Shown: piece after piece, positions 327 to 24,625 of the stretch
Numbering within the stretch: position 1 is the stretch's first letter
Layout of the letters: each line of letters starts with the position of its first letter
Source of the DNA: a virus
Reading direction: 5' to 3' (one strand)
IMG/VR virus record: IMGVR_UViG_3300020190_000210
Span: 1 to 33,388 of that record
DNA length: 33,388 nt
Notes under the pieces: generated by a model
What the model was told of the DNA's origin: nothing
Database searches by the model: none
What the model saw: the letters and a program-made list of their open reading frames with translations, nothing else
Position numbers and translations under genes: made by a program

Positions 327-818
327 ATGGCAGAATTACTAAATCCATCGGAAATATTTTATACTTCGTTTGAACCGAAGGTAAAAAATCGTTTTATCCT
401 TTATGTTGACGGTATACCTTCTTTCATTGTAAAGAAGGTTAATCGTCCTAAGATCACTCAAGCCAAAAAAGAACTTGATCATATCAATGTCAAGTCATAC
501 TACAAAGGTAAGAGTGTATGGGATGACATCTCAATGGAACTTTATGATCCAATCGTTCCTAGCGGCGCACAAGCTGTGATGGAATGGGTTCGTCTTCACC
601 ACGAATCTGTAACTGGTCGTGACGGTTATCAAGATTTCTATAAGAAGGATATTACGATCAATGTACTCGGGCCCGTGGGTGATAAGGTAGAAGAATGGCA
701 ATTAAAAGGTGCTTTTATTACCAATGCAGATTTCACAGATATGGACTGGAGTGATGACGGTGCTGCTCAAATGATCACTATTGGTATAGCATACGATTAC
801 GCAATTCTTCAATACTAA
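327..818 (+). CDS. Tail tube protein, T4 gp19-like
   Basis: This 163-residue protein is the same length as T4 gp19 and reads like that family throughout: MAELLNPSEIFYTSFEPKVK at the N-terminus, then KNRFILYVDGIPSFIVKKV, a central segment with YDPIVPSGAQAVMEWV, and a C-terminus with TDMDWSDDGAAQMITIGI. Family members polymerise as hexameric rings to make the inner tube through which DNA passes. The start follows AGAAAGG, one of the few purine-rich ribosome-binding sites in the window, after an AT-rich leader containing TATTTATA at 299-306. A strong intrinsic terminator follows 19 bases after the stop, so it is a single-gene unit, fitting a protein needed in many copies. Codon choice includes more C-ending codons than the neighbouring unknown genes. 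Confidence 0.93.
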   Translation: MAELLNPSEIFYTSFEPKVKNRFILYVDGIPSFIVKKVNRPKITQAKKELDHINVKSYYKGKSVWDDISMELYDPIVPSGAQAVMEWVRLHHESVTGRDGYQDFYKKDITINVLGPVGDKVEEWQLKGAFITNADFTDMDWSDDGAAQMITIGIAYDYAILQY

Positions 819-875: not shown

Positions 876-1772
876 ATGCAAATGGGCAAAAAAATATTCG
901 TAATATACCCCGGAAGATTTCATCCATTCCACAAAGGTCATAAGAGTGTATACGATTATTTAAGTACAAAATATGGTGGTAGCAATGTTTATATAACAAC
1001 TACCGATAAAATAGAATTGCCAAAATCGCCGTTTAATTTTGATGAAAAATCCACAATGATGTCACTAACAGGCATACCTTTATCCAAAATAATTAAAGTT
1101 GTTTCAAATTACAACGTAAATAACTTAATGGGTCAAATACCTATTGATTTAGATAGAGACTCATTAATATTTGCTGTAAGTGAAAAAGACATGACCGAGG
1201 ATCCTAGATTCAGTAAATTTACTAAAAAAGATGGATCTCCTTCTTATTTACAACCCCTTACAAAAAAATTGGATAAGTTAGAACCTGCTATTAAACACGG
1301 TTATATAGATACAACACCTACTACAGATTTCACGGTTTTAGGTAAACAAGTAAGAAGTGCAAGTGAATTGAGAAAACAATATGTCACTCTTACTCCCAAA
1401 CAAAAGAAACTGTTTATTACAGATTTATTTGGTAAATATAGTGATGTAGTAAAACAAATTTTGGATACTAAATTACGCGCAATTGCAAATCAACTTACTG
1501 AAAAACAAAAACAAACATTAAAAAGAATTATTGTTGGTATAATAAAAGAAGACGAAGCTAAGATAAATGCAGCCAAACAAGAAGTGGATAAAATAACAGT
1601 TGATCTAAAAAATGCAACGGAAAATCTTAAAAAGATAGAACTTGCAGCAGCAGAAGAATCACTTAAACAAGCACAAGAAGCACTTAAAAGTGCAAAAACT
1701 CCTGAAGAAAAAAAAACAAAAGAAATTGATGTAAAATTAAAGCAATCTGCTGTAGATAATTTAAAAGATTAA
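876..1772 (+). CDS. Cytidylyltransferase-like nucleotidyltransferase with coiled-coil tail
   Basis: The 298-residue protein starts with a Rossmann-type strand (KKIFVIYPGRFHPFHKGH) that contains the HxGH signature of the cytidylyl/adenylyltransferase superfamily at residues 19-22. The second signature, the (I/V)SSxxxR-type loop, appears as VRSASELR at 159-166. Both catalytic motifs are present, so an active transferase of a nucleotidyl group is likely; the substrate cannot be read from the sequence. From about residue 205 the protein becomes a long charged Lys/Glu/Ala coiled coil ending at 298, which is not part of the catalytic fold. There is no Shine-Dalgarno sequence; a second in-frame ATG lies two codons later. 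It is embedded in the tail cassette between tail tube and gp26-like genes, so it might act on or in the virion, but that is only inference. Confidence 0.72.
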   Translation: MQMGKKIFVIYPGRFHPFHKGHKSVYDYLSTKYGGSNVYITTTDKIELPKSPFNFDEKSTMMSLTGIPLSKIIKVVSNYNVNNLMGQIPIDLDRDSLIFAVSEKDMTEDPRFSKFTKKDGSPSYLQPLTKKLDKLEPAIKHGYIDTTPTTDFTVLGKQVRSASELRKQYVTLTPKQKKLFITDLFGKYSDVVKQILDTKLRAIANQLTEKQKQTLKRIIVGIIKEDEAKINAAKQEVDKITVDLKNATENLKKIELAAAEESLKQAQEALKSAKTPEEKKTKEIDVKLKQSAVDNLKD

Positions 1773-1851
1773 TTAAATAATGTATAGTTGCTTTAGTATA
1801 AAATATAATAACTAAAAAGTTATATAAAGCACTATATATTGTTATAAAGTT

Positions 1852-2682
1852 ATGAGTGACGAAATTTTTATTCAACATTTAAAACAACAACACGAAGCTT
1901 CTACTACAAAGTCTTCAAACAACACCCCAACTTATCCTGCTGAAACAGTGTCATTGCCGTCAAAAGGATATTTTTATGAAGAAACAACTCCACTCAGCAA
2001 AGGTAGTGTTGAAATGAAGATGATGACTGCTAGAGAAGAAGATATTTTAACCAATGAAAATTATATTAAGAAAGGTATTGTTCTTGATAAACTTCTTGAA
2101 AGTCTAATTGTTACTCCAGGAATAAATGTAAGTGATTTGTTGATGATTGATAAAAATGCACTTTTTATTGCTGCCAGACGATTAGCATATGGTGACAATT
2201 ACGGTCCTGTCAAAATAGAATGTAAGAAGTGTAATTTTGAAAACAAAACTAATATTGATTTATCACAACTAGTTGAAAAAGAAATTGATTTTTCTAACTT
2301 TGAAAGAGGAGTTAATGAATTTGAATTTGAGTTTCCGTTTTCTAAGAGAAAAATTACTTTTAAATTAATAACATCCGGCGATGAAGAAATTATTGATCGT
2401 GATCTAAAATCAATTAATAAAATCAAAAAAAATTCCAGTGCAGAAGTTACTACACGATTGAAGAGACTCATCACTAGTATAGATGGTAAAAAAGATCTCG
2501 CTGCTGTAAATAAATTCGTTGACAATGAATTACTTTCAAAAGATAGTATGGCGTTGAGAGGTTATATTAAAACCGTGGCACCAGAACTTGATTTAGGTTT
2601 TAACTTTGTATGTGAAAACTGTAATCACGAAGAAAGGATGGATGTACCGATGACGGTACAGTTTTTTTGGCCTGAATCCTGA
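1852..2682 (+). CDS. T4 gp26-family baseplate hub assembly protein, frame 0 part
   Basis: The 276-residue product matches the T4 baseplate gp26/gp51-type family: an N-terminal disordered segment, then the conserved ETVSLPSKGYFY, a helical region with KMMTAREEDILTNENYIKKG, and a zinc-binding module with Cys124-x2-Cys127 and Cys254-x2-Cys257. It ends DVPMTVQFFWPES. It lies immediately upstream of the tape measure gene, the place where many phages encode tail assembly chaperones. The stop TGA at 2680-2682 is followed by a reading frame in +1 that has no start codon and continues to 2881 (separate entry), so a longer product of about 342 residues is likely. No ribosome-binding site is visible before the ATG. 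Confidence 0.8.
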   Translation: MSDEIFIQHLKQQHEASTTKSSNNTPTYPAETVSLPSKGYFYEETTPLSKGSVEMKMMTAREEDILTNENYIKKGIVLDKLLESLIVTPGINVSDLLMIDKNALFIAARRLAYGDNYGPVKIECKKCNFENKTNIDLSQLVEKEIDFSNFERGVNEFEFEFPFSKRKITFKLITSGDEEIIDRDLKSINKIKKNSSAEVTTRLKRLITSIDGKKDLAAVNKFVDNELLSKDSMALRGYIKTVAPELDLGFNFVCENCNHEERMDVPMTVQFFWPES

Positions 2683-2881
2683 ATACAAGGTTTTCCTACA
2701 CAAACAAATATTTGAACTGAGTTATTTCTCCGAAGGTGCGATAAACGTTGATGTTGCATATAAATTGCCTGTTTTCTTACGTAATTTCTACTATAGACAA
2801 TTAGTAGAGATTAAAAACAAAGAAAATGATAGTTACAAACAGCCCAACAAAAAATCCGGTAAAATAGATAAACCATTTTAA
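2654..2881 (+). CDS. +1-frame extension of the gp26-family gene (tail assembly chaperone-like)
   Basis: In the +1 frame relative to the upstream gene, an open frame runs from just after a TGA at 2651-2653 to a TAA at 2879-2881. It encodes FFGLNPEYKVFLHKQIF, then ELSYFSEGAINVDVAYKLP and VFLRNFYYRQLVEIKNKE, with a basic tail. The segment has the look of a conserved folded domain (Y-x-x-x-L-H-x-Q-I-F, then Y-x-L-P-x-x-L-R-x-F-Y-Y), but there is no ATG, GTG or TTG before the core of it. Two places allow entry: the T7 run at 2662-2668 (CAG TTT TTT TGG) and the sense/stop pair TCC TGA at 2677-2682. Shifting +1 at either gives a 342-residue fusion. A sequencing indel is the alternative; the genomic position favours a programmed frameshift. 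Confidence 0.62.
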   Translation, partial: RYSFFGLNPEYKVFLHKQIFELSYFSEGAINVDVAYKLPVFLRNFYYRQLVEIKNKENDSYKQPNKKSGKIDKPF

Positions 2882-2903
2882 TATAAAAACTAATAATTTG
2901 GTA

Positions 2904-2911
2904 TATTTATA
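2904..2911 (+). promoter_or_regulatory. TATTTATA octamer before the tape measure gene
   Basis: TATTTATA lies six bases before the ATG at 2918. No Shine-Dalgarno sequence is present between. Confidence 0.35.
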
Positions 2912-2917
2912 TTAGAT

Positions 2918-5900
2918 ATGGCAGCATCATTTGATCCATCAAAATTAGCCGAGGCTCTTTCACGTTACGGTACGGAGTCTAAAGAAACTTTATCAAATTT
3001 AGAAAATGCTAAAAAAGTTGAGTCAGAAATGGTGGATTTGGCTAAACAATTGGGTCAAGTATATAAAACTAACAATGATAAATTTAAAGAATCTTTAAAA
3101 AATAAAACGCTTGAAGAAAAAATAACTGCGCAGTTAGAGAAAACGACTGAAAAAATTGGTGCATTAGAAAGTGCCAGAATGAACAGCTTAGCACAAATAA
3201 AAGATAACACTAATTTAGTTTCTGCGCTTGAAAGTAAATTGTTGGCACACCACGCTGGTATCGTTACTTTATCAAAAGAAGAATATGATATTACACAAAA
3301 AGGGGTTGTTGATATAAAACGACAAATTAATTTAGAAGAAAAGTTACTTGAACAATCAAACCGAGAACTTAAAAACATAAAAATTAAAAATGAATTTTTA
3401 AAGACGACGAAAGGAATATTCGAGGGAATAAATAAGAGTGTTGATTTTTCAGTTAAACTTTTGGATAAAGCAGGTGACTCTGCAAATAATTTGGCAGGTA
3501 AATTAAATATACCAACTACATTTTCAGGTGTATTAGATAAATTGGTTAGCACATTTAATCAGATTGATACTGCTGCTACAAGCGTAAGACAAAAATTTGG
3601 ACTTTTAAGAAGTGAAGGTCAATTATTTGAAAAAAATATAAGAGAAACTGCTACAGAACTGGCAGATTTTGGAGTAACGGCTGAACAAGCTGGTGTTACG
3701 ATGAAAGATATTGGTTCTACATTTACATCTTTACAAGCTGCTGAAAAAAGCTTAGTTAAAGACGTTTCGTTGATGTCTGCTCAATTTGGTATCGCTTCCG
3801 CAACCAGTGCAAAGTTTTTACAAACGATGAGTGGTATTACCGGTAAAAGTGCAATGTCAAATAAAAATATGATGGGATTTGCCAAAATGGCATCTACCGC
3901 TTATGGTGTTGGACTTGATGATGTAATGAATGACGTTGCTAATGCAAGTGATGAAGCAAGAATGTTTGCTGGTAAAAATGCAAATGAAATGGTAAGAGCA
4001 GCTGCTCAAGCAAGACAAATGGGAACTAGTCTTGATAATATGGCAAAGACTGCTAAAGGTTTATTAGATTTTGAAAGTAGTATACAAAACGAACTTAAAG
4101 CTAGTGCTTTGATTGGTAAAAATATTAATTTTAATGAAGCTCGTAGATTGGCTTTCCAAGGAAAAGTAGTTGAAGCAAATAAATTGATATTAGATCAAGC
4201 AAAGAAGATTAAGTTTAATCAATTGAATCCAATTGCTCAAGAAGCATTTGCGCAAGCAGCAGGTAAGAGTGTTAAAGAGTTGCAAGATATGTTGGGTGCC
4301 GAACAGAATTTAAACGATGCACTTAAATCTCAAGATCCTGAAGTAAGAAAATTAGCTGAGAATCGTAAGAAAATGGCACAAACAATGGAAAAAGGATCCG
4401 CGGCGGAAAAAGCTGCGCAGCAAAAAGCATTTGAAGATGGTATTAAACGAGAACATAATCAAGAGAGAATTAAAACAATTCAAAACCAAATAAATCAATT
4501 GTTTATGGAATTGGCAGGCCCAATTTTAGAAGCTATCGGTCCAATATTGGAAGGAGTTATTAATTATCTAAAAGAAAATAAAGAACAAGTTAAATCAATT
4601 GCTATGGAAATTGGTAAATGGTTTGTTGCGGTAAAATCATTCGCAATACTTTTTTCTTCAAGTGTCGTTGGACCAATTGGAAGTACTTTAACTGGTATAG
4701 GTAAATTAACAAATGGAATTTTTAAATTTACACAGAGTTTGTTTAAACCGGTGGAAAGATTAACCGATATTGCTTATGGGTTTGAAAAAATTTCCAGTAA
4801 AATAAAGTTAATTTCTACTGAAATATCAAGCTTCGGAAAGGGCTTTAGAACTATATCTGGGTTTGTTGGTGGTGTAGGAAATCAATTTTTAAAATTATCC
4901 GATACAATTTTTAATATAGGCGTGAAAGTTGAGAATTTACTTTTAAAATTTCCTAAAATTACAAAAATAGGATCTTTATTTTCAAAAGTGTTTGGTGGTG
5001 TAGGAAATATAATAAGCGGAACTTTCGGAAAGTTGGGTGGATTTTTTACAAGAGCAAGTGGAAGTGTTGGATTGATATCAAAAATAGGACCACTTTTTGG
5101 TGCAGTTTCTAAATTTCTAGGTCCAATTGGCCTCGTAATTACCGTTATACAAGGCGCGACTGCATTTATTAAAACATTCACAACCACTACAGGTACATTT
5201 TCAGATAAAATTAAAGCTGGATTAAAAGGAGTATTTGAAACCGTAATATTGGAGCCGCTGAAAATGGTTGGGGATTTAATTAAAAAAATACCCAGTTTAC
5301 TTGCAGAAATAGATTTCGGTGCCATTTTTAAAGATGTAACTACATATCTACTAGACGCTTTAGTAAGTTTGCCTGATATGATTGAAAAATTATTTACGGG
5401 ATCTGGAGGCGGAGGAGTAGAATGGGGTAAAATTTTTATGAATATTGGAAATCTTTTTCTACAAATATTTATGTTTAATGTAATTAAACTTCCAATTGCA
5501 GTAGCTACTTTAGTAGGAAAATTGGGATTATTGATACTTAAAGGAATCGCTTCATTAGGAATAACGCTTTTAGAATTAATATTTTCACCTTTCAAATTAG
5601 CTTTTGATAAAATCGTGGAATTTTTTGGAGGTAAATCTCCTTCTCTGTTGGGACTGTTGATTGTAAATGGAATTAAATCGGTTACTGATATGGTTTTTGA
5701 ATCTCTAACGTATCCATTTAAAAAATCACAAGAAATTATACCTGAAATAATAAACATTTTAAAAACAACTTTTGTAGATGCATTTAAATCTATTGTAGAA
5801 ATATTATATGAGATAATAACATTTCCATTTAAAAAAGCCTTTAATTACATAAAGACATCACTATCAGAAGTAGGAATTGTTTTTAAAGATATATTTTCTG

Positions 5901-6265
5901 TAGCATTTGATTTTGTAATAAACGGCTTAGGAAAAATTGTAGATAAAATAAAAGGAATTGGTGGTACCGTAATGAATTTAGCAGGCAAAGCTGTTTCTTT
6001 TGTATCTGGTATATTTGGCGGTGGCGACGGCGAAGAAACGAATTCGGCTGAAAAATCTGCTGGTAAATCAGAACCCGTTAAAAATGAACTTGTAGATGCA
6101 ATAATAAATTCCAATAGATTAGTAGTAGAAAGATTGGATAAGCTGACACAACTTATGACATCCGGTCAAATAGCTGTCTATATAGACGGTCAAAAAGCAA
6201 ATCAGTTATTAGCAGCATCTTCTACAAAATTCGGTTCATTAGGTCAATTAACAACTTTGTTCTAA
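2918..6265 (+). CDS. Tail tape measure protein
   Basis: This 1115-residue protein is the longest gene of the window and lies downstream of the tail tube and gp26-family genes, as expected for a tape measure. The first 190 residues form a charged heptad-rich coiled coil (Lys/Glu/Leu). Residues around 220-480 are alanine-rich helices with typical tape-measure wording such as TATELADFGVTAEQAG and MSNKNMMGFAKMASTAYGVG. From about 560 onwards there are repeated hydrophobic glycine/isoleucine/phenylalanine stretches, alternating with basic linkers, which may insert in or contact the host membrane during ejection. A hydrophilic linker rich in Glu and Ser leads to a C-terminal domain ending GSLGQLTTLF. 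By the usual rule of about 0.15 nm per residue the tail would be near 165 nm, longer than T4. TATTTATA sits seven bases before the ATG region. Confidence 0.88.
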   Translation: MAASFDPSKLAEALSRYGTESKETLSNLENAKKVESEMVDLAKQLGQVYKTNNDKFKESLKNKTLEEKITAQLEKTTEKIGALESARMNSLAQIKDNTNLVSALESKLLAHHAGIVTLSKEEYDITQKGVVDIKRQINLEEKLLEQSNRELKNIKIKNEFLKTTKGIFEGINKSVDFSVKLLDKAGDSANNLAGKLNIPTTFSGVLDKLVSTFNQIDTAATSVRQKFGLLRSEGQLFEKNIRETATELADFGVTAEQAGVTMKDIGSTFTSLQAAEKSLVKDVSLMSAQFGIASATSAKFLQTMSGITGKSAMSNKNMMGFAKMASTAYGVGLDDVMNDVANASDEARMFAGKNANEMVRAAAQARQMGTSLDNMAKTAKGLLDFESSIQNELKASALIGKNINFNEARRLAFQGKVVEANKLILDQAKKIKFNQLNPIAQEAFAQAAGKSVKELQDMLGAEQNLNDALKSQDPEVRKLAENRKKMAQTMEKGSAAEKAAQQKAFEDGIKREHNQERIKTIQNQINQLFMELAGPILEAIGPILEGVINYLKENKEQVKSIAMEIGKWFVAVKSFAILFSSSVVGPIGSTLTGIGKLTNGIFKFTQSLFKPVERLTDIAYGFEKISSKIKLISTEISSFGKGFRTISGFVGGVGNQFLKLSDTIFNIGVKVENLLLKFPKITKIGSLFSKVFGGVGNIISGTFGKLGGFFTRASGSVGLISKIGPLFGAVSKFLGPIGLVITVIQGATAFIKTFTTTTGTFSDKIKAGLKGVFETVILEPLKMVGDLIKKIPSLLAEIDFGAIFKDVTTYLLDALVSLPDMIEKLFTGSGGGGVEWGKIFMNIGNLFLQIFMFNVIKLPIAVATLVGKLGLLILKGIASLGITLLELIFSPFKLAFDKIVEFFGGKSPSLLGLLIVNGIKSVTDMVFESLTYPFKKSQEIIPEIINILKTTFVDAFKSIVEILYEIITFPFKKAFNYIKTSLSEVGIVFKDIFSVAFDFVINGLGKIVDKIKGIGGTVMNLAGKAVSFVSGIFGGGDGEETNSAEKSAGKSEPVKNELVDAIINSNRLVVERLDKLTQLMTSGQIAVYIDGQKANQLLAASSTKFGSLGQLTTLF

Positions 6266-6282: not shown

Positions 6283-8856
6283 ATGGCAAATAGCAATACA
6301 TATATAGCCGGTCTTCAACCAGGTGGTACTGAAGTGAGTACATTGAGCCAAGTACAATCAAATGGATTGTTACTGCCTGTACCTACAGGTCGGTATATAG
6401 ACACAAGAGCTCCCGGTAAATTAGAAATATTATTTAACACTGGAAATAACAGCGAAGTACTTTATAGCAAAAATAAACCACAAGATCTTTATTTAAAAGG
6501 ACTTGTACAGTCTCAATTGGCTCCTCCTTTTTATGTTAATCCAAATCAAGGACAAAGACAAAAAATAGGCACTAATCGTATATTTCCAGTAGAAGCTGCT
6601 TTAAGAGATACTACTAGAGTAACGCGATTTTTAGGTACAGGTAAAGGCGTTGGATTTTTAACTAAACAGATTATTTTACAAGGTTTTCAAACATTTGATG
6701 AAACTAAAGTGTATAATCCTGCCAGTCCAATATTAGCCGCTTTTTGGCCAGCAACATTTGGTTTATTAAATAGACCACAAAGATTTATTGATACCAGTAA
6801 TCTAATAGGAGGATTGGTAGGCGCAACAGGTTTAGGTGGAATTATAAGTACAGTCGGTAGTTTTTTTGGAGCAACTGCTGGTAATCCACCTCCACCAAGA
6901 AGTTCAGTAGCTAGCGCCGACAGCGAACCAAAATCTGGACTGGGTGGATTTTTTAATATTGGTGGTATATTTGGAGGTGGAGATAGAAGTGATAAAGTTT
7001 TACCTATTATAGGACAAGATGGTGCTAAGGGTCTCATAAGAGGTAATACGGCAACAAATGCTTATAACGGTCCTCGGTATTCAACATTATTACCGCCGCC
7101 AAGTGGTGGATTTTTTGGTAATTTATTAAAAGCAGCTGGATCATTTTTAAAGAATAATACTTTGTTAGGAGGTTTACTTCCACCAACTCAACCAATTGCT
7201 GGTTTAAAATATCGTGCCGATGAAAACACATATCAATATATGTTATTATCGGATAGATGGAGTGCTTTTGTTACACAAGCTACTGATAACGATCCAAATT
7301 TAAGTGCAGGCGTTAATCAAGGCAATTATTTACTTTATACAGGTACTCAATCAACATCCAAAGGCGGTTTTTTTGGTACATTGTTAAAGGGTTTAGGATT
7401 TAATACTAAAAGTGTAACTAACGCCGGTTCGGTCGCAATTAGATTTTATAATGGTGGTAATTCAAATAATAAACTAAGATTGTATGTTAGTAACAATAAC
7501 AGTGGTAGAACTAATAGCAAACTTACAACCAAATTTGATACTACCAACAATGTAGGCAAACTTGATTTGACGGATACCAGTAAAATTACTCAAGAAAGCA
7601 TAGATTCAGTAAATGAGGGTAATATTTCCAATGGAAATAATCGTTATGGAGATGTTGTTAAAGTAACACCTGATTACGAATATAGTGATCAATTAACTAA
7701 TTATACAATTTTTTCCGATCAAAAACTCTCACAAAATTATAAAACTACTTTTACCGATAAAACTTCACAGTTAGTTACAGAGTTAAAAAATATATTTGAA
7801 TCTACTCAAACCGATGTCAGCAAGGCAGGATATAGTTATTCAATGGCATTAGGTAAACCACAACAATTTTTAGATGATGATATCGGATTTAATTATATAG
7901 CAAAGGTAAAGTCTGCTAGAAGTAAAACTACACCGGCTAACGATCCAAATAGCTTAACCTATCAAGGTAAATTTAGAAAAAATCAAGATGTCATAAAATA
8001 TCCAAGCAGATTGGGTCAGAAGAAAGATAAAGACAGATTCATCAGACCAACAAATGATACCGATTATGTAAATTCGTTGGGTGTAATGAACGATACTGAA
8101 TTTACAAATTTATACGATTCAAAAGAAAAATGGAATGGATTGGGCCCTGACTTTATAAAGTTTTATTTTTACGATATTGTAAATAATAGATTTATACCTT
8201 TTAACGCTACTATAAAAGGAATACAAGAAAACAATACTGCAAACTGGGAACCTGTTGAATATTTAGGTCGTCCTGATAAATTATATTACTATAAGAATTT
8301 TTCTAGAGACTTAAATCTTAGTTTTAAAGTTGTAGCACATAGTGTCAATGAATTGATGCCAATGTGGCAAAGAATTAATTATTTAGTAGGATTAACCCGT
8401 CCCGCTAATTATACATCAACTACAAATGGAGGATTTATGATACCGTCTATGGTTCAATTAACACTCGGCGATTTTTATAAAAAACATTTTGTTGTAATTA
8501 CCAGTGCAAACATAACAATACCAGACGACGCTTCGTGGGAATTGTTAAATGAAGATTATATAAAGAATAATCTGTGGAGTTTTAATGTTGGTAGGATATA
8601 TAAAGATATGAAAGGAAAAGTAGCTCAATTTCCAAGAGAAGCTGACATTAGCTTGCAAATGTTTATTATGGAAAAAGATAGAGCAAAAACTGGAAGAGCT
8701 CTTTGGGGAGATGCGCCTGTTAAAACATTTAGTGCTACCGATGTTGATCAAGAAGGAGTGCTTGCAATTGATAATTACGGTGACAAATCTACTGATATTA
8801 AAGAAAATTCATTCTCATTAAATATGAGATATGACACTGATGTACAAGGTCAATAA
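6283..8856 (+). CDS. Baseplate protein, gp48/gp54-like C-terminal domain
   Basis: The 857-residue protein begins MANSNTYIAGLQPGGTEVST and is separated from the tape measure by 17 bases. Its C-terminal third (roughly residues 630-800) resembles baseplate tube-initiator or tube-cap proteins: a hydrophobic segment IKFYFYDIVNNRFIPFNATI, a NFSRDLNLSFKVVAHSVNEL segment, LVGLTRPANY, then FMIPSMVQLTLGDFY and a 'SANITIPDDASWE' motif. The central region (about 180-390) is rich in glycine and phenylalanine, with three GGFF-containing copies near residues 221, 275 and 361. Position between the tape measure and the LysM protein agrees with a baseplate-centre role. It is far longer than T4 gp48 or gp54, so the identification applies to the C-terminal domain and the rest is unassigned. 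Confidence 0.6.
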   Translation: MANSNTYIAGLQPGGTEVSTLSQVQSNGLLLPVPTGRYIDTRAPGKLEILFNTGNNSEVLYSKNKPQDLYLKGLVQSQLAPPFYVNPNQGQRQKIGTNRIFPVEAALRDTTRVTRFLGTGKGVGFLTKQIILQGFQTFDETKVYNPASPILAAFWPATFGLLNRPQRFIDTSNLIGGLVGATGLGGIISTVGSFFGATAGNPPPPRSSVASADSEPKSGLGGFFNIGGIFGGGDRSDKVLPIIGQDGAKGLIRGNTATNAYNGPRYSTLLPPPSGGFFGNLLKAAGSFLKNNTLLGGLLPPTQPIAGLKYRADENTYQYMLLSDRWSAFVTQATDNDPNLSAGVNQGNYLLYTGTQSTSKGGFFGTLLKGLGFNTKSVTNAGSVAIRFYNGGNSNNKLRLYVSNNNSGRTNSKLTTKFDTTNNVGKLDLTDTSKITQESIDSVNEGNISNGNNRYGDVVKVTPDYEYSDQLTNYTIFSDQKLSQNYKTTFTDKTSQLVTELKNIFESTQTDVSKAGYSYSMALGKPQQFLDDDIGFNYIAKVKSARSKTTPANDPNSLTYQGKFRKNQDVIKYPSRLGQKKDKDRFIRPTNDTDYVNSLGVMNDTEFTNLYDSKEKWNGLGPDFIKFYFYDIVNNRFIPFNATIKGIQENNTANWEPVEYLGRPDKLYYYKNFSRDLNLSFKVVAHSVNELMPMWQRINYLVGLTRPANYTSTTNGGFMIPSMVQLTLGDFYKKHFVVITSANITIPDDASWELLNEDYIKNNLWSFNVGRIYKDMKGKVAQFPREADISLQMFIMEKDRAKTGRALWGDAPVKTFSATDVDQEGVLAIDNYGDKSTDIKENSFSLNMRYDTDVQGQ

Positions 8857-24235: not shown

Positions 24236-24625
24236 ATGAAAAAATCATTAATTCTATCAATATTGACACTCGTATTCTCACTTACTGATGTAAATGCGGG
24301 AAGTTTTAGTTGGGGAATATCTTTTGGCTTCGGAGGAGGATTTTGTGCTCCTGTATATTATCCTCCTGTAGTTTGTGCGCCGGTTGTATGTGCTACGCCA
24401 GTGGTATATACTCAACCAGTTGTACACCACATAGTTTACACTCAACCAGTTGTGTATACACCGCCTGTAGTTTATACTCAACCAGTATGTACTGTACCGG
24501 TTGTAAATTATTATCGTCCAGATTGTTATCGTTCTCCAGTGACAGGCACCGTATGGGTAGGCGGCGCATCAAGTAGTCATCGTCCCGTTGTACATCGTCC
24601 CGTTGTACAACGTAGAAACCGTTGA
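24236..24625 (+). CDS. Secreted Val/Pro/Tyr-rich repeat protein
   Basis: The 129-residue product begins MKKSLILSILTLVFSLTDVN, a clear Sec signal peptide with a probable cleavage after NA at residue 21. The mature part starts GSFSWGISFGFGGGF and continues as imperfect repeats of VVYTQPVV/VVCAPVV units with six cysteines after the signal, then a basic C-terminus with two copies of HRPVV. Such low-complexity Tyr/Pro/Val proteins are common among bacterial envelope proteins and rare in phages. Flanking promoter-like and terminator sequences make it an independent unit, typical of a 'moron' gene carried for a benefit to the infected cell or for surface exclusion. Periplasmic or outer-surface location is likely; function is unknown. 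Confidence 0.75.
   Translation: MKKSLILSILTLVFSLTDVNAGSFSWGISFGFGGGFCAPVYYPPVVCAPVVCATPVVYTQPVVHHIVYTQPVVYTPPVVYTQPVCTVPVVNYYRPDCYRSPVTGTVWVGGASSSHRPVVHRPVVQRRNR
24411..24608 (+). repeat. Imperfect tandem repeats within the secreted protein gene
   Basis: ACTCAACCAGT recurs three times between about 24411 and 24488, coding for TQPV units. CATCGTCCCGTTGTA is repeated directly in tandem near 24579-24608, coding for HRPVV. Such DNA repeats allow length variation by slippage. Confidence 0.7.

Follow-up and report, generated by a model that had tools for sequence, protein, structure and literature searches.

A conserved +1 frame layout at UUU UUU UGG in the gp26/gp51-family gene preceding the tape measure gene of uncultured T4-like phages

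In an uncultured, T4-like phage, a gene of the gp26/gp51 family is followed directly, in the +1 frame, by a conserved coding domain that lacks a start codon of its own. Hundreds of related phages share this layout, and we therefore regard it as a real production switch. The sequence analysed, referred to here as the window, comprises the 33,388 nucleotides of IMG/VR record IMGVR_UViG_3300020190_000210. Judging from comparison with relatives, it is likely that a conserved ribosomal +1 slip at UUU UUU UGG makes a long protein, TAC-NC, beside the short TAC-N, in a manner resembling lambda G/GT. Under such a mechanism, the majority of ribosomes would terminate at the zero-frame UGA and release the 276-aa TAC-N. 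In a minority, the P-site tRNAPhe, accompanied by a second tRNAPhe in the E site, would re-pair by +1 on UUU UUU U with UGG in the A site. These slipped ribosomes would then continue on GGC CUG AAU and yield a 342-aa TAC-NC whose C-terminal domain is predicted to be helical. If the parallel with lambda G/GT holds, the tape measure protein may be coated by many short copies, and tail tube subunits may be recruited by a few long ones.

Gene order and the second reading frame

Upon re-reading, all coordinates of the preliminary description, among them those of the U7 run and UCC UGA, were correct (Table 1). The zero frame ends in ...GTA CAG TTT TTT TGG CCT GAA TCC TGA, and the +1 frame reads TTT TTT GGC CTG AAT CCT GAA TAC ..., with an open stretch of FFGLNPEYKVFLHKQIF...DKPF. 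A slip at U7 reproduces the 342-residue product proposed earlier, and the -1 frame does meet a stop after two codons (TTG GCC TGA). The +1 frame opens just three codons ahead of FF, and its first ATG, GTG or TTG is a TTG in the middle of the domain.

Table 1. Features of the chaperone region of the window
Feature	Position	Strand	Evidence
Tail tube protein (gp19), upstream neighbour	327..818	+	PF06841 E 5.1e-7; phrog_4542 E 5e-28
Short form TAC-N, gp26/gp51-family, 276 aa	1852..2682	+	PF12322 E 2.8e-12; phrog_150 E 6.8e-16
Stem-loop UGUACCG-AUGA-CGGUACA, ending one base 5' of the U-run	2643..2660	+	terminator-like scan, shuffles, covariation
U7 run	2662..2668	+	
Shift site UUU UUU UGG C (codons in the E, P and A sites, plus the next base)	2662..2671	+	UUU UGG in 96/97 clusters; fused paralogs
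+1-frame extension TAC-C, FFGLNPEY...DKPF, 72 codons and stop	2663..2881	+	pN/pS 0.135
Last zero-frame sense codon, UCC	2677..2679	+	
UGA ending the short form in the zero frame; neither its position nor its context is conserved	2680..2682	+	cluster comparison
Stop codon TAA of the +1 frame	2879..2881	+	
Tape measure protein, immediately 3'	2918..6265	+	phrog_58 E 1.2e-14

The short form contains two CxxC motifs and belongs to PF12322 (T4_baseplate), scoring 47.2 bits against a gathering cut-off of 24.5. Its gene lies after the tail tube gene and before the tape measure gene, where a tail assembly chaperone is expected. One additional ORF (876-1772), nucleotidyltransferase-like by eye, separates the tube gene from TAC-N. 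Elsewhere in the window, a small ORF (24236-24625) carries a Pro/Val/Thr-rich repeat (VVYTQPVV...), and its N-terminus resembles a signal sequence.

A sequence search of solved structures found no relative. Because the model of a natural fusion, L061, had a poor core (pLDDT 58), fold searches used the AlphaFold core model of the window protein alone (276 aa, pLDDT 90). The two best PDB matches, covering residues of about 22-119, were the HK97 tail assembly chaperone (2OB9) and YqbN (3KLU), which we take to be a tail assembly chaperone as well. Both matches are weak (Foldseek E 1.1 and 1.4; Z 4.8 and 5.3), and that two such chaperones head a list of 350,542 PDB chains is suggestive for the modelled fold, not proof.

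Relatives were surveyed for the most part with queries that do not contain the junction. The downstream domain alone matched 71 loci, and a gp26-like ORF lies directly 5' in every one. Two more searches used the domains of relatives with the junction residues trimmed; each matched at least 600 stretches, of which 80 loci per search were taken. Among the loci taken, 235 have both parts readable, and the +1-frame extension reported for the window recurs in 227 of these, with four loci in the -1 layout and four in frame. At 85% nucleotide identity, these 227 loci fall into 97 clusters. Scanning for the U7 motif together with a permissive pattern 3' of it gave 80 readable loci, all with the same gene pair; as these were chosen by the site itself, they are left out of the counts above. 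A scan of genome contigs for relatives found none.

The downstream frame after the overlap has a pN/pS of 0.135 versus 1.0 and 2.7 for the other two frames, and its 3880 codons hold no stop versus 213 and 394 stops in the others. The downstream frame is thus under purifying selection as a protein, and the conserved domain of about 70 residues without a start codon, as first described, is borne out. A one-base sequencing error, which had been named as a possible source of the layout, is ruled out by its recurrence in independent metagenomes and in the isolate genomes Mel-JY01, immuto and RM378.

The probable shift site and the stem-loop upstream

The U7 run first proposed as a shift site is strongly conserved. 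At the junction, the zero-frame codons are UUU UGG in 96 of the 97 clusters, preceded by a further UUU in 92 and by UUC in 4/97; the sole exception is L269 (UUU CUU UUC). Outside the site, the phenylalanine codons of the same genes are TTT and TTC in a ratio of 708 : 158. UUU is found above this codon use in both the P site (96/97, P about 7e-8) and the E site (93/97, P about 3e-5), where the clusters are treated as independent though they are related. The first codon read beyond the slip encodes glycine in every cluster except L269. Four further T7 runs lie within ORFs of the window, at 6861, 7368, 10811 and 14954; at the first two, GG is next and the frame encodes Phe-Phe-Gly.

Trp UGG was also considered as a 'hungry' codon and set aside. 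No other Trp codon is located ahead of the site in 88 of the 97 genes, and TGG, with 86 codons, is not rare in the window. Since TGG necessarily arises where a T7 run precedes GGC, the conserved Gly codon, a slow UGG would provide no independent evidence for the slip.

Stable structure was found on one side of the site. In 24-nt windows across the relatives there is no peak of folding after the site, and the complete window segment 2640-2760 is no more stable than its shuffles. In the relatives, the stretch of 24 nt that runs up to the site has a mean folding energy of -5.1 kcal/mol versus -1.4 elsewhere in the gene. The clusters were divided into group A (that of the window, n 17), group B (n 33) and the marine group C (n 46). 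In 65% of group A, 85% of group C and 24% of group B, the site window is more stable than 95% of synonymous-codon shuffles, compared with 0-15% of clusters for 14 upstream control windows. In 14 distinct sequences from the wider group of the window, the 7-pair stem has 70% of its cells paired and at most 50% when slid, and its covariation score is reached by none of 500 shuffles. As judged by these comparisons, the stem-loop is selected in groups A and C. In group B, the hairpin is weaker than -4 kcal/mol in 27/34 clusters and U7 is mostly kept. It is probable that the stem-loop tunes the slip rate in some lineages. GGAGG is found 22 bases 5' of the slip site in all 46 clusters of group C (e.g., L300 and L305). 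The hairpin and T7 together (2643-2668) are terminator-like and located inside an operon, where they could also lower transcription of the tape measure gene.

The resemblance of this stem-loop to an intrinsic terminator raises the main rival explanation, transcriptional slippage, in which RNA polymerase, aided by the nascent stem-loop, would drop one U, so that the part of the mRNA carrying U6 encodes the long form. Stem-loop-mediated slippage of this kind was reportedly described in a Roseburia IS element by Penno and colleagues in 2015. The placement of the stem-loop one base 5' of U7, its selection and covariation, the excess conservation of UUU in the E site, and the exactly six T's carried by the long paralog of L060 (see below) are all compatible with this explanation. 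Against it, the homopolymer is broken in the UUC UUU UGG clusters, in L269 and in immuto (UUU CUU UGG), most group B clusters retain U7 with no stable hairpin, and T7 occurs at four other places in window ORFs. Because of the broken U-runs and the retention of U7 in group B, slippage on the ribosome is favoured on the sequence evidence, and slippage by the polymerase is considered unlikely.

Natural fusions and the T4 gene pair

Alignment of homologs, which had been suggested as a check for fusions in a single frame, revealed such fusions in four relatives (L060-L063). These carry two tandem chaperone copies (1312-3225), a short one followed by a long one in frame. The first copy ends in ...FWPNA(K/N)V without the extension, and the long copy has one base fewer at the site (TTT TTT GGA TTA AAT in L060, TTT TTC GGA CTA AAT in L061). 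The fused product reads FF/GLNPEY, with the slash marking the junction, which is the exact product of a +1 slip at UUU UUU U; the junction is thus fixed and a later one excluded. In the fused copies, which are free of overlap, the codons of the site are variable (TTC, GGA, TTA). From these sequences, gene duplication appears to replace the frameshift in L060-L063, as in T4 gp26/gp51.

The same junction bears on the remaining rivals. A -2 ribosomal slip, as used by phage Mu (PMC5009743), is allowed by U7 and would reach the same frame with one extra residue (FFFGL). Such a slip is very improbable here, given that UUC UUU UGG and UUU CUU UGG re-pair worse at -2 than at +1 and that the natural fusion is FF-GL with no additional residue. 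The second site put forward in the preliminary description, a stop-dependent +1 shift at UCC UGA by antizyme- or prfB-like logic, can be dismissed with near certainty: this sense-stop pair, present in the window and 8/97 clusters, is absent from 89/97, the zero-frame stop falls at site codon 5, 6 or 8 (3, 65 and 29 clusters), and the fusion junction is upstream. It is just as implausible that the domain is a separate protein made from its own start or by reinitiation, even though in 41/97 clusters, mainly of group C, its first start is at codon 9, soon after the zero-frame stop. In the window no ATG, GTG or TTG occurs before or within the conserved N-terminus, the GLxPEY motif upstream of codon 9 is conserved, the domain is fused in frame in L060-L063, and T4 gp51 is one long ORF. 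CTG is not a conserved start either, since Leu4 is CTA, CTC or CTT in 18/97 clusters. An independent or CTG start is therefore rejected for the window and, more generally, for the conserved N-terminal motif. The codon-9 start of the 41 clusters (group C, e.g., L300 and L305) could permit reinitiation.

Both T4 proteins, gp26 and gp51, match PF12322 and phrog_150, and gp51 has the longer C-terminus. When the frameshift product is used as a profile, its alignment with gp51 extends into the C-terminal extension of the latter (hhalign E 1.6e-4, probability 50), and no significant match was obtained when the downstream domain was compared directly, as a profile, with that extension by itself. T4 has two PF12322 genes; six other matching records, of the frameshift type and some of them possibly incomplete, have one each. 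T4 gp26 and gp51 have been listed as hub assembly chaperones, with gp51 absent from virions (PMC3004832). In the T4 record (L087, 7803-8429), an internal gene 26' is annotated within gene 26, and the T4 short form may thus have a shorter product of its own. The tandem fusion, the short and long family members of T4 and the weak matches of the core fold are the grounds on which the two products are assigned as a TAC-N/TAC-NC pair.

Direction of shift and comparison with known systems

Among named phages, the domain lies in the +1 frame in Microcystis phage Mel-JY01 and RM378 (both UUU UUU UGG) and in Flavobacterium phage immuto, and at other sites in Listeria phage LIS04 and Streptococcus phage GXN1. 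In the latter two (L080 and L081), CGA is found near 4700, shortly before the short form ends (ACC CGA, CCC CGA), and perhaps marks a different +1 site. A -1 layout is seen in XacN1 and RAS14 (U UUU UUU), in PA5oct and one huge phage (U UUU UUC), and in L055-L058, whose junction, located near 2998 in L055, has the canonical heptamer A AAU UUC. The domain profile supports the assignments of Mel-JY01, immuto, L055-L058, LIS04, the huge phage and RAS14, and weakly that of GXN1; RM378, XacN1 and PA5oct were assigned from the open frame as read by eye. In a tree of the core, no fewer than three changes are required to account for the -1 label, and L055 and L058 fall inside the +1 part, though the deep branches are long and placement is unsure, above all for T4. 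These sequences indicate that the direction of the shift can change within one family with the product pair kept. It is conceivable, though we hold it only tentatively, that a U7-abutting stem-loop was the driver, either of a one-base deletion by the polymerase or as a 5' stimulator of +1 slippage on the ribosome, and that the family then moved several times among +1, -1 and duplication, always keeping the pair.

The likeness to lambda gpG/gpGT claimed in the preliminary description is well founded: the gene is directly 5' of the tape measure gene, short and long forms share an N-domain, and the frameshift is at the 3' end. The shift in lambda, however, is -1 and here it is +1, on a 276-aa core with two CxxC motifs. 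T4-like TACs share PF12322 and the two forms, but T4 uses two genes, whereas here one gene is used with a +1 shift at UUU UUU UGG and a 5' stem-loop. Vladimirov, Gautam and Davidson are said to have reported, in Virology in 2022, that T4-like phages encode TAC-N and TAC-NC, with separate genes in T4. The connection between gp26 and tail assembly chaperones, which the preliminary description had expected, is supported and is not new, as citing papers attribute the idea to Vladimirov et al. (2022) (PMC10885494, PMC12846349). In one of these, the poly-T signals of T4-like phages are described as -1 (PMC12846349).

Phage tail genes use shifts of -1, -2 and +1, and a +1 shift is very likely in the TAC of the haloarchaeal myovirus HSTV-2 (PMC5009743). 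HSTV-2 is comparable in gene function and direction, but its host is an archaeon. Escherichia coli prfB (CUU UGA C) resembles the present site in the slip of the P-site tRNA onto the next U (YUU U), and immuto has CUU UGG C; yet prfB has a stop in the A site and an SD-like element 3 nt upstream, where here a sense UGG stands and no SD-like motif adjoins the shift site. In Listeria phage PSA, +1 recoding also occurs in structural genes, but at CCC U proline sites and in different genes.

A recoded tail assembly chaperone pair is a known kind of system. In the published work consulted, we found no description of the UUU UUU UGG +1 class in uncultured phages, of the 5' stem-loop, or of changes in direction within the family. 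In citing papers, T4-like TACs are described with -1 signals or duplicated genes, and the +1 class, spread over hundreds of uncultured phage contigs, joins them. Current records overlook the joined product, listing unjoined ORFs for Mel-JY01 and immuto. T4 gp51 has long been an essential assembly protein of unknown function. The natural fusions show what protein the recoding has to yield, and the findings support the view that T4 gp26/gp51 is the duplicated form of the same device.
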